Assembly: GCF_900114835.1 (NCBI RefSeq)
Contig: NZ_FOUJ01000001.1
Coordinates: 806,001 to 870,000, forward strand
Direction of reading: 5' to 3'
Source of the DNA: Methanolobus profundi
GTDB taxonomy: Archaea; Halobacteriota; Methanosarcinia; Methanosarcinales; Methanosarcinaceae
DNA: 64,000 bases
The position numbers and the translations under genes were made by a program. The notes beneath the pieces were generated by a model that saw only the letters and a list, made by a program, of their open reading frames with translations, ran no database searches and was not told where the DNA came from. Position 1 is the stretch's first letter. Each line of letters opens with the position of its first letter. This document shows, piece by piece, positions 42,240-63,993 of this stretch.

Positions 42240-42405
42240 TGTAGTCACACAGTCTGGAGATACAGGCTGACTACACGACCAATGATCGGTGGTACGATCT
42301 GACCTTGATTGAAAATAACTGAAGCTAAAAACGCATAAAAACTGGAACGTTAACAAACCTACTCCAAATTACTCCCACACAACACACACAAGGTTTGTTG
42401 CGTTC
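42240..42405 (+). ncRNA. Candidate two-hairpin small RNA with G-free loop
   Basis: Hairpin 1: TGTAGTCA (42240-42247) / TGACTACA (42268-42275), loop 20 nt. Hairpin 2: GAACG-tt-AACAAACCT (42345-42360) / AGGTTTGTT-g-CGTTC (42391-42405), 14 paired bases, with a 30-nt loop (42361-42390) that has no G and contains ACTCCC and ACACAACACACACA. No reading frame of worth is present. A TATA box sits at the right distance. The design matches the hairpins at 16.6 and 62-64 kb. Confidence 0.6.
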
Positions 42406-61201: not shown

Positions 61202-61525
61202 TCAACAACCAGAAGCAGAGGATCTTGATTCAAGGGCAGAACGTATCATGTCCTCATATTCTTCCTTCAGGGAATACACTATAGGGGTCTTGTAGGACTC
61301 TTTATGAGACCTGAGGACACCTAACTTAGAGTAGATGTAGCCTACCATTGATGCAACGGCACTACGGGAGATATCATACTTCTGAGTGATGTTCTCATGC
61401 AGTTCATCAACAGTTGTCTCTTTCACTTTTAAGAATAGTGATAATATGTGACTGCGGAGCCCATTACAATCAAGTTCAATGAACTTTTGCAATCTTCGTT
61501 TTATCTTTGCGCGAATTGAGTCCAT
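61202..61525 (-). CDS. DUF2551 winged-helix protein
   Basis: A 107-residue protein of the DUF2551 type, a small winged helix: IKRRLQKFIELDCNGLRSHILSLFLK, TVDELHENITQKYDISRSAVASMVGYIYSKLGVL, KTPIVYSLKEEYEDMI. Probably binds DNA. GAGGTGAAGATATG gives one of the best ribosome binding sites in the window. First of a two-gene unit. Confidence 0.8.
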   Translation of the reverse strand: MDSIRAKIKRRLQKFIELDCNGLRSHILSLFLKVKETTVDELHENITQKYDISRSAVASMVGYIYSKLGVLRSHKESYKTPIVYSLKEEYEDMIRSALESRSSASGC

Positions 61526-61680: not shown

Positions 61681-62130
61681 ATGGATATCAGGTACGATAT
61701 TGAAAATAATGTGATGCAGATAGATGATGTTGATATACATCCCCATAGCCTGGATACTAATTTCATAGGTGTCTGCAACAATTGTAATTCAGATGTAAGT
61801 AGCATAAGCTATCACACCTATGAAGAAGGGATGGTAGTTGCTGGAAAATGCAGTCTTTGCGACACCATAGTTGCGATAATGTATGATAATGAATGGAACT
61901 GGCAGGGAGAAGAAACCATTTCTCAGTTCTTTGATATCAAAAGCAGCAATAACCTGAAAAACCTTAATTCGATCGACCGAAAGAAACTTGCTACGGTTTT
62001 TACTCCTGCTGAGACCGATGCTATGTATGCAAAGGCCAGAGGCGAAAAATACGTTCGCCAATACCTATACAGGGCACGTAAGAAATATGCAGATTTTGAA
62101 GAGCTGTTCGGGATCCACATAAATATATGA
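61681..62130 (+). CDS. Zinc-ribbon-like protein, unknown
   Basis: A 149-residue soluble protein with two CxxC pairs (CNNC at about 32-35 and CSLC at about 57-60) that should bind zinc, and a basic helical C-terminus (KYVRQYLYRARKKYADFEELFG). No family recognised; nucleic-acid binding is plausible. GGTGA lies five bases before the ATG. It is the last protein gene before the hairpin-rich non-coding region. Confidence 0.65.
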   Translation: MDIRYDIENNVMQIDDVDIHPHSLDTNFIGVCNNCNSDVSSISYHTYEEGMVVAGKCSLCDTIVAIMYDNEWNWQGEETISQFFDIKSSNNLKNLNSIDRKKLATVFTPAETDAMYAKARGEKYVRQYLYRARKKYADFEELFGIHINI

Positions 62131-62629
62131 TCGGATCATGCTCAAGTATATGCATACTAAAGCTATGAGAGTTAGGAATACGTGCGAAAATAATATAGAC
62201 AGTATTACTTTGAGTATTAGTGCATAGAGTGAGCATCTGCACAGTTTGTTAAAAACATAGAAGTAGTATTTAAATAACGATGTTTTTATAATATATTTTT
62301 TGATTTGAATATGCTAGGGTATTCAAATACAAAATATGCAAATAATACTTGCATAATTTGTTTTACAATAACGTATAATTAATAAACTATTACATAAGTT
62401 TATTGTATAAGTCGTAGTGTTTGACGATCTTTCCACATATTATGTGCAACTGTGCATATTATATCAATATCCTGGTAACTACCAAATGCTATTTACTGCA
62501 ATAGCCATATCATATATCGTATACCTGTACATATTAGCTACAGATAATGGTTTTGTAGGAAACAAGAACAACATATTTATATACTAACGTTTGCATCTTC
62601 AGATTTGAAGGGACATTACAATTCTAGCA
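62131..62629. other. Start of the long non-coding region
   Basis: No gene seen. Holds a perfect hairpin ATTTGAATA/TATTCAAAT (62303-62328) and a TATA-like TTTATATA at 62576-62583 that could start the first RNA unit near 62606. Confidence 0.5.
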
Positions 62630-62718
62630 TCCTGATAGGTGCAAGTACCACCACCCAAACATCAAACAATATCATATTTGTACCACCAACCCCCGTTCCT
62701 TCGTTTGCCCTATCAGGA
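62630..62718 (+). ncRNA. Hairpin unit 1: two TACCACC loop motifs
   Basis: Perfect 10-bp stem TCCTGATAGG (62630-62639) / CCTATCAGGA (62709-62718). The 69-nt loop carries TACCACC at 62646 and 62681, followed by ACCC and AACCCCC. Confidence 0.6.
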
Positions 62719-62740
62719 ACCCACATTTATTGATGAGTGA

Positions 62741-62892
62741 CAATGTTGCGTAACATTGTTTCCTGTTCTTCTATATATTTTAAGAACAGAATAAACTGTG
62801 TACAATTCGAAAAGAGGAATATCGGGGTTAGTACACAGGCGTCGAAGACAATAACATCGGCGTCTTCCTCCTTATAATACACCATCATAAGG
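62741..62892 (+). repeat. Cluster of five short perfect hairpins
   Basis: CAATGTT/AACATTG (62741-62758), CTGTTCTT/AAGAACAG (62763-62789), CTGTGTAC/GTACACAG (62796-62838), GAAGAC/GTCTTC (62844-62867), CCTTAT/ATAAGG (62870-62892). A CTTCCTCCTT pyrimidine run lies between the last two. Confidence 0.6.
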
Positions 62893-63078
62893 ATATTGAT
62901 ATCTTATGGAAAGCTTGCATAATTATCTTCTGCAGCTGAAAATAGTGGTTGAAAGAATTATATCATTAAATTAAGTTATATTATTGAATATAAAATAAGT
63001 ACTGAACTTATAAATAGAATAATATAAAAACTAAATGTAGAATATAGTGTGGGATAATATGCTATATCACATATTAGT

Positions 63079-63191
63079 TGCCTATAGGGTCCTTCAGGAT
63101 CCCTAACCTAACATGTACCCTTATAGGCAGCATTTTATACTTACGGCAGTGCTCGCTGCAACAATTCCTCCTTCTCTTAAAGTGTGTTGCA
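63079..63191 (+). ncRNA. Hairpin unit 2: ACCTAACATGT loop plus CCTCC loop
   Basis: Stem TGCCTATAGGGT / ACCC-t-TATAGGCA (63079-63090 with 63117-63129, one bulge) with ACCTAACATGT in the loop. It is followed by TGCAACA/TGTTGCA (63157-63163 with 63185-63191) whose loop holds TTCCTCCTTCTC, which includes the anti-SD core CCTCC. Confidence 0.55.
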
Positions 63192-63285
63192 CTACGGGCC
63201 TGTCCAAAAAGTAATTTATCATAAACAGTGTTAATTTTGAGAATCAAATAATATGGATATATATAATATAGAAATAATTAATAGT

Positions 63286-63362
63286 GTGTGTTACTACATA
63301 TATAATAGTAACACACCCTATCCAAACCCACACAAGAACACCAACCTAGCAGTGGTGTTCTT
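63286..63362 (+). ncRNA. Hairpin unit 3: two perfect hairpins behind a TATA box
   Basis: GTGTGTTACTA/TAGTAACACAC (63286-63296 with 63306-63316), then a C/A-rich linker (CCTATCCAAACCCACAC), then AAGAACACC/GGTGTTCTT (63334-63342 with 63354-63362) with loop AACCTAGCAGT. GGATATATATAATA (63255-63268) is centred 25 nt before the first stem. Confidence 0.6.
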
Positions 63363-63397
63363 CCTCACTGTTACTTTCTAGCATATAACGTATAAGA

Positions 63398-63411
63398 GTT
63401 GCGTAACATTG
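63398..63411 (+). repeat. Direct repeat copy GTTGCGTAACATTG
   Basis: Identical 14-mer to 62745-62758, and both are followed by (T/C)TTCCT(G/A)TT. Confidence 0.7.
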
Positions 63412-63519
63412 CTTCCTATTGTATTATATAGAATTGCTTCTCAGGCATTAGAGCTCAATGGGTAGTTTCACTTACATTTACAATATCATATTATCTTTGG
63501 TACTGCTGGAATAAAATGC

Positions 63520-63574
63520 CGGTGTTAAATTATATATAGGTTCAACAACAGTGTAAGGCTGCTTGTTAACACCG
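63520..63574 (+). ncRNA. Hairpin unit 4
   Basis: Perfect stem CGGTGTTAA (63520-63528) / TTAACACCG (63566-63574), 37-nt loop. The loop is less C-rich than the others. Confidence 0.5.
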
Positions 63575-63612
63575 TTAACTTGCACATAAAATTGGATAGA
63601 GATGGTACATAA

Positions 63613-63735
63613 AACCTGACAAGGCACCACACCAACCAACCTAACATGTTCCTTGTCAGGTTACTCTGATGGATGATCAAACTTTAATATATGAGTCCCT
63701 ATTACAATGGTAATACCACCAACCAGCTCATCAGA
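63613..63735 (+). ncRNA. Hairpin unit 5: CCAACCAACC and ACCTAACATGT loop
   Basis: Perfect 12-bp stem AACCTGACAAGG (63613-63624) / CCTTGTCAGGTT (63651-63662). The 26-nt loop has only one G and holds CCAACCAACC followed by TAACATG. A second hairpin, TCTGATG/CATCAGA (63665-63671 with 63729-63735), follows at once and carries TACCACCAACC (63714-63724) in its loop. Confidence 0.65.
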
Positions 63736-63847
63736 ATCCCGTTTTCACAACTATTCTGCTTTATCCTGCATCTTTATAGCTATCAGTGGCATAACTAACC
63801 AGGGAACAAAATAAAAGATAGGTAAATAGCAAATCCGATCTCTTATT

Positions 63848-63905
63848 TAATGTAAGTTACATTACTAACAATAGATAAGTAACTAAGTTTCATAGATCTG
63901 ATCTA
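63848..63905. repeat. Two perfect palindromes
   Basis: TAATGTAA-g-TTACATTA (63848-63864) and TAGATC-t-GATCTA (63893-63905). Confidence 0.6.
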
Positions 63906-63932
63906 GGAAGAAGTAGATAATACTATCTTATA

Positions 63933-63993
63933 CACCTCTGATCCGTACCACCCAGAGGTGCATAAATGGTGCCAGGTCGGCTTTAATAGGCAC
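63933..63993 (+). ncRNA. Hairpin unit 6: TACCACC loop
   Basis: Perfect stem CACCTCTG (63933-63940) / CAGAGGTG (63953-63960) around a 12-nt loop ending in TACCACC (63946-63952). A smaller GTGCC/GGCAC hairpin (63969-63993) follows. The unit may continue past the window edge. Confidence 0.55.

Follow-up and report, generated by a model that had tools for sequence, protein, structure and literature searches.

The sponge RNAs CsrB and RsmZ consist of many hairpins in which a fixed loop motif is carried on drifting stems, and related sites occur in the leaders of their targets. CsrB titrates CsrA, to our knowledge a bacterial protein that is not expected in archaea, and we know of few trans-acting RNAs that have been characterised in archaea. 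In Rhizobiales, SmelA075 and SmelA099 form 3-4 hairpins, each with the anti-Shine-Dalgarno loop CCUCCUCCC and with variable stems (PMC3927594). In Methanosarcina mazei, sRNA154 masks an RBS through its loop, and sRNA41 masks RBSs as well (PMC5867862). For Methanolobus psychrophilus, the published description gives 195 intergenic sRNAs, 43 intergenic regions with two or more of them, nine highly conserved and cold-induced sRNAs, and cold-box sRNAs (PMC5378194).

We do not place the hairpin array of Methanolobus profundi that we describe here in any of the families compared; SmelA075/SmelA099 are the nearest known kind to it. It shares with CsrB/RsmZ the many hairpins, the fixed loop motif, the drifting stems and the related sites in leaders, while its motif is ACC instead of GGA and it may comprise several transcripts. 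Like SmelA075/SmelA099, it has several hairpins with the same C-rich loop motif and varying stems, has multiple members and is proposed to mask RBSs (PMC3927594). Unlike the array, they are bacterial, their loop is a direct anti-SD sequence instead of UACCACC or ACCAACC, they have only a few hairpins per RNA where up to 17 stand in one gap here, and there is no homology. The CCUCC-type anti-SD was not found in the array hairpin loops, and CCTCC occurred only in strands beside some stems in relatives. The M. mazei sRNAs are likewise archaeal, intergenic and from the same order, and they mask RBSs, which for the array is only proposed (PMC5867862); they are, however, single genes with other sequences and form no array. 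The M. psychrophilus sRNAs, compared by the paper's description alone, are from the same genus, clustered and intergenic (PMC5378194), whereas genome G005, taken as M. psychrophilus, lacks unit 1 (described below) and TACCACC in its syntenic gap. A covariance-model search with Rfam 15 matched no family to the array, in keeping with the preliminary description, whose author knew of no named family with this look. The only significant match was a tRNA outside the region, and one other match (E = 4.7) lay far below the gathering score and is due to chance. A search of a plasmid collection gave no match, and neither of our two unit models (R1 and R2, below) matched any genus but Methanolobus.

The window analysed is a stretch of 64,000 nucleotides (G000:C7:806001-870000) from the 3.1-Mb genome of M. 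profundi. The array-bearing gap measures 3,882 bp, from window position 62131 to about 66012, and thus extends beyond the window end. It holds no long protein gene between the end of a 149-aa gene (61681-62130) and an MFS transporter gene (L004 11013), and the next longest among the intergenic regions listed is about 1.0 kb (regions of at least 400 bp in 880 kb of contig). The gap is syntenic in most of 27 Methanolobus genomes, its two flanking genes standing 1.7-5 kb apart in the greater part of the genus. The cluster had been placed at 62303-63993, in an interval without a protein gene. The absence of a protein gene there is correct and the array does lie there, but it runs about 500 bp past the window end (Table 1), and there are related dispersed copies outside this interval.

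Table 1. Features of the hairpin array and of related copies (window positions unless a contig is given)
Feature	Position	Strand	Basis or remark
Promoter-like element of unit 1, TTTATATACTAACGTTTGCAT (TATA box + TTTGCAT)	62576..62596	+	aligned in 9 species, consensus TATAAATAGCAACATTTGCATA
Unit 1, candidate structured RNA with H-type pseudoknot	62607..62718	+	covariation in 9 species; covariance model R2
TACCACC, first copy in unit 1	62646..62652	+	alignment
TACCACC, second copy in unit 1, better conserved (TGTACCACCA in most relatives)	62681..62687	+	alignment
Hairpin CTGTGTAC / GTACACAG, 27-nt loop	62796..62838	+	
Hairpin GAAGAC / GTCTTC, A/C-rich loop; weaker, may be chance	62844..62867	+	sequence
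Unit with outer stem TGCCTATA / TATAGGCA, inner hairpin GGGTCCTTCAGGATCCC, single strand TAACCTAACATGTACCCT	63079..63129	+	sequence; repeat family D6
Hairpin GTGTGTTACTA / TAGTAACACAC, 9-nt loop	63286..63316	+	
Hairpin AAGAACACCA / TGGTGTTCTT, loop ACCTAGCAG, C/A-rich strand upstream	63334..63362	+	
Hairpin CGGTGTTAA / TTAACACCG	63520..63574	+	
Unit with 12-bp stem AACCTGACAAGG / CCTTGTCAGGTT, loop CACCACACCAACCAACCTAACATGTT	63613..63662	+	
Unit with stem TCTGATG / CATCAGA, loop with TACCACC (63714-63720)	63665..63735	+	
Hairpin CACCTCTG / CAGAGGTG, 12-nt loop ATCCGTACCACC, TACCACC at 63946-63952	63933..63960	+	
Array continuation past the window	G000:C7:870104-870147 and about 870445-870507		
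Leader-hairpin copies	G000:C7:524227-524361 (L182), G000:C7:454597-454732 (L241)		one before DUF4405, the other before a VTC-domain gene

Perfect hairpins with arms of at least 8 bp were about 15 times as frequent as in dinucleotide shuffles. In 62303-63993 we counted 18 non-overlapping perfect hairpins with arms of at least 6 bp (shuffled mean 10.1), 13 with arms of at least 7 bp (3.9) and 8 with arms of at least 8 bp (0.5, with a maximum of 3 in 60 shuffles). The earlier figure of at least fifteen inverted repeats therefore holds for arms of at least 6 bp, about half of which are expected by chance, while strong hairpins with longer arms are far above chance. Over the whole gap, counted with arms of at least 8 bp and a GC-weighted threshold against dinucleotide shuffles, there were 10 hairpins versus 0.6, and the gaps of relatives held 17 versus 1.5 (G022), 16 versus 0.9 (G024) and 14 versus 0.9 (G023). 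A CRISPR or other regular repeat array was discarded, as the longest direct repeat is 33 nt and has two copies, 653 bp apart. This repeat (window 62740-62777 and 63398-63430) contains a palindrome, which reads ACAATGTTGCGTAACATTGT in its first copy, and has a TATA-like stretch after it; it could be a shared operator-promoter, and a similar repeat occurs in G016 (L008 about 1501-1547).

The stem sequences had been thought all to differ. This did not hold, as many stems in relatives have common CTGATA or CTTATCAG cores, and others such as CTGATAAG or CCTTATGGGGC are common to several stems. Orthologous stems had changed in matched pairs, with GATTGCCTGATAAG / CTTATCAGGCAATC in one species versus GATTGTCTGATAAG / CTTATCAGACAATC in another, and CCTTATGGGGC / GCCCCATAAGG versus CCTTATGGGAC / GTCCCATAAGG; where GTCTGATAGAGG stood against GTCTGATAGGGG, the partner arm was altered to match. 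Units were also duplicated in tandem in G024. Duplication and drift thus seem to shape the array, while the pairing and the loops are retained.

The best-resolved member is unit 1, which lies behind a conserved promoter-like element. In its predicted H-type pseudoknot, helix A (62607-62614 with 62695-62702) is interleaved with helix B (62630-62639 with 62709-62718). The arms of the nine homologues were registered by hand, and 85.9% of the cells were paired. As registering by hand is biased towards the structure, more weight attaches to the double changes: both sides had changed in 6 pairs and 10 cells (3.0 and 3.9 in shuffles), including G-C to A-U in both helices and U-A to A-U and to G-C in helix B. 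The covariation score was 0.242 compared to 0.152 +/- 0.020 in shuffles, none of 500 shuffles being as high, and slid controls reached at most 0.081. The count of G-U versus A-C cells in unit 1 alone (13 versus 9) is not decisive by itself. R2, the covariance model of unit 1, was found once per genome, at the array locus, in nine Methanolobus genomes, and had no match in other genera among 112 genomes of the family. It gave two weak matches in G001, one of them inside that genome's own copy of the region. Unit 1 thus has both a conserved RNA secondary structure and a candidate promoter of its own, the latter recognised by sequence. The compensatory stem changes with fixed loops that the preliminary description had proposed to seek in relatives are present, in unit 1 and in the other orthologous stems.

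The loops are rich in C (24.5%, compared to 15.4% in the background) and poor in G (11.4%, compared to 13.8%). The 5' arms are G-rich, and T is somewhat enriched in the 20 nt that follow the 3' arm (40% versus 34%). The repeated motifs first reported are real: TACCACC lies exactly at 62646, 62681, 63714 and 63946, always on the plus strand, with five copies in the other 62.3 kb; CCAACC occurs five times between 62686 and 63724, all plus; and ACCTAACATGT recurs at about 63106 and 63639. In the gaps of the array-bearing species, TACCACC occurred about 25 times on the plus strand versus once on the minus strand, and ACCAACC 23 times versus none. The loop classes are TACCACC, ACCAACCAACCCTAACATG, AATAACCCCTAAC, TTACCCAGTTACCCGAA and ATACATCATACCAACCAATG. 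One and the same class can be found on differing stems, and that of the unit at 63613..63662 (CCAACCAACCCTAACATG) also occurs in G021-G023, on other stems. Promoter-like elements (a TATA box and AnnAACAnTTGCATA) recur before several units, and all 11 occurrences of a strict form, AnnAACAnTTGCA, in ten gaps are on the plus strand. Relatives thus keep both the pairing and the loop motifs, whereas the loss of both was what the preliminary description had named as refuting its idea. This upholds the view that the cluster encodes structured RNAs, undescribed so far, whose exposed loops are conserved. That the array comprises plus-strand structured RNA with conserved loops and drifting paired stems is well supported by these sequence comparisons, and we infer that it is transcribed as separate small RNAs. 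A genome search with CCAACCTAACATGT and two mismatches did no better than the reversed pattern, and a TACCACC-pair pattern across the genus was overall not above control; one conserved class of such pairs (TACCACCAAATATGG...) was discarded as coding sequence on the opposite strand.

A related hairpin is dispersed in 5' leaders, upstream of either a DUF4405 or a VTC-domain gene. It has the promoter TTTATATTTGCATTT and the stem AGATC(A/G)CATG / CATG(T/C)GATCT, which closes a long loop rich in ACC. Within the family, its model R1 matched 14 genomes, all of them Methanolobus. In 20 copies of the stem, 200 of 200 cells pair (192 Watson-Crick, 8 G-U, 0 A-C), and the most variable pair is A-U in 11, G-U in 6 and G-C in 3. 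This pattern of predicted pairing, with G-U and no A-C, is the signature of a plus-sense RNA. The two M. profundi copies have an identical promoter type and a repeated AAAGCTTTAT-like sequence upstream. A leader peptide with His or Thr codons was rejected by eye, the frame not being conserved between copies. Intergenic GTACCACC was found 11 times versus 1.0 expected in 880 kb, with 6 of the 11 outside the array. One of these lies within a small palindrome (GATCGTACCACCGATC) on the minus strand at window 42278-42305. Paired TACCACC was also seen in the strand between two hairpins at four sites (G001:C4:94801, G024:C4:22134, G014:C11:19901 and G010:C156:2537), about 160-200 bp upstream of a start codon; the downstream gene encodes a secreted, cohesin-like protein at three of the four.

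We suggest, with a probability of about 0.4, that the array is a cluster of structured RNAs peculiar to the genus, whose single-stranded ACC loops act by RBS pairing. Its genes or modules would be read from the plus strand into small structured RNAs. Each of these would expose a single-stranded loop poor in G and rich in ACC (such as TACCACC or ACCAACC(C)TAACATG), with a stem sequence free to drift while pairing persists. The loops would be trans-acting pairing sites; UACCACC would block 30S binding by pairing with GGUGGUA in the RBSs of a group of mRNAs, most of which encode membrane and secreted proteins, while the stems would hold the loop open and protect the RNA. Since their exposed loops stay the same while the stems change in matched pairs, the array RNAs probably regulate genes, in a manner hardly known from archaea.

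The GGTGGTA RBS is the exact complement of the TACCACC loop motif. GGTGGT ranked first among 1,112 RBS k-mers in its association with a hydrophobic segment at the N terminus (18 of 24, p = 7e-6), in a test of 754 genes from one contig of one genome with home-made gene starts, which was post hoc in that the hydrophobic character of the GGTGGTA genes had been noticed before. For GGTGGTA, 10 of 11 genes had such a segment, compared to 31% in the background. Half of the GGTGGTA sites lie inside upstream coding sequence; in the strictest subset, with non-coding sequence upstream, the count was 4 of 4 (p = 0.008). The k-mers GGTGA and GGAGG had no association with the segment among the same 754 genes. 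The genes concerned include MnhE, MnhG, an ABC-transporter permease, pilins, lipoproteins and one that we read as FpoL. In small samples of other genomes the counts were 1 of 2 (G022), 1 of 1 (G005) and 0 of 2 (G032), too few cases for comparison. GGTGGTA at mnhE and mnhG is kept also in several array-less species, and its distribution follows phylogeny. The duplex energies of whole loops with RBS regions were no better than those of shuffled loops, and many loops (ACCCAGTTACCC, CCAACC) had no enriched RBS complement. Of the original proposal that the loops pair with G-rich RBSs, what stands is that GGTGGTA RBSs mark membrane and secreted proteins in this genome; the whole-loop energies speak against it, and GGTTGG, the complement of CCAACC, shows nothing. 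Loop-to-RBS pairing is therefore only suggestive, and we infer it as the mechanism on this footing.

The ACC loops might instead be recognition sites of a hypothetical single-strand RNA-binding protein, which the array would titrate, the leader sites being the regulated targets. We regard this sponge as the main rival, though less likely than not. ACC triplets are numerous in the loops and freely spaced (mostly 4-11 in each leader loop), the 5' leaders of unrelated genes (DUF4405, VTC, MMPL and the cohesin-like protein) carry the motif too, intergenic GTACCACC is in excess as given above, and many fixed loops on drifting stems are the look of a multi-site RNA. No candidate protein is at hand, however, and the loop classes are more diverse than the sites of one protein usually are. 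The TRAM proteins of Methanolobus were ruled out as specific partners by their reported nonspecific RNA binding (PMC6705878). We put RBS pairing slightly ahead of the sponge because the loop complement topped all k-mers.

The units follow one another head to tail on a single strand of one syntenic gap, and could thus be hairpin domains of one long non-coding RNA (2-3 kb) instead of separate small RNAs. This is improbable, as promoter-like elements stand before several units, units are gained, lost and duplicated freely between species, and the length varies from 1.7 to 5 kb. A DNA-level element with no RNA function (recombination sites, protein-binding palindromes, mobile-element remnants or terminators) is more improbable still: it would agree with inverted repeats in AT-rich DNA, CTGATA cores common to stems and the palindrome-containing repeat within the array, but loops and promoters are strand-asymmetric, the leader stems vary to G-U and never to A-C, the loops, at 20-45 nt, are longer than terminators would have, and near-identical regular repeats are lacking.

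Returning to RNAs that act through their ACC loops, we tentatively propose a genus-specific, post-transcriptional regulon in which the expanding array, with its conserved unit 1 pseudoknot, and the 5'-leader copies have one common partner, either the GGUGGUA RBSs of envelope-protein mRNAs or a hypothetical ACC-binding protein. If true, archaea would have in it a counterpart to the Csr-type sponges or to the sRNAs that control the envelope in bacteria. With up to 17 fixed-loop hairpins at one syntenic locus and a motif link to leaders and an RBS class, the regulon is directly testable, and the array offers ready-made RNA baits for an archaeal RNA-binding partner. The unit 1 pseudoknot, the genus-wide synteny, the 5'-leader copies and the possible protein partner go beyond the preliminary description.

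Other conserved sequences surround the array. Beyond the window, about 880 bp (L004 9561-10442) are conserved at about 70% across much of the genus, and parts of them match the opposite strand in G026 and some others. This stretch has no long ORF, only a short one at its start (L004 9573-9713), which encodes 46 aa in G000, contains ...SVWYNLGSVERQVKSCENFK..., has a relative in G022 by eye and had no Pfam match. On the other side, the 149-aa protein is conserved and has four cysteines, and its Pfam matches, of zinc-finger-like type, are only weak. Throughout most of the genus its gene keeps synteny with the array, and a DUF2551 protein is encoded nearby (61202-61525).
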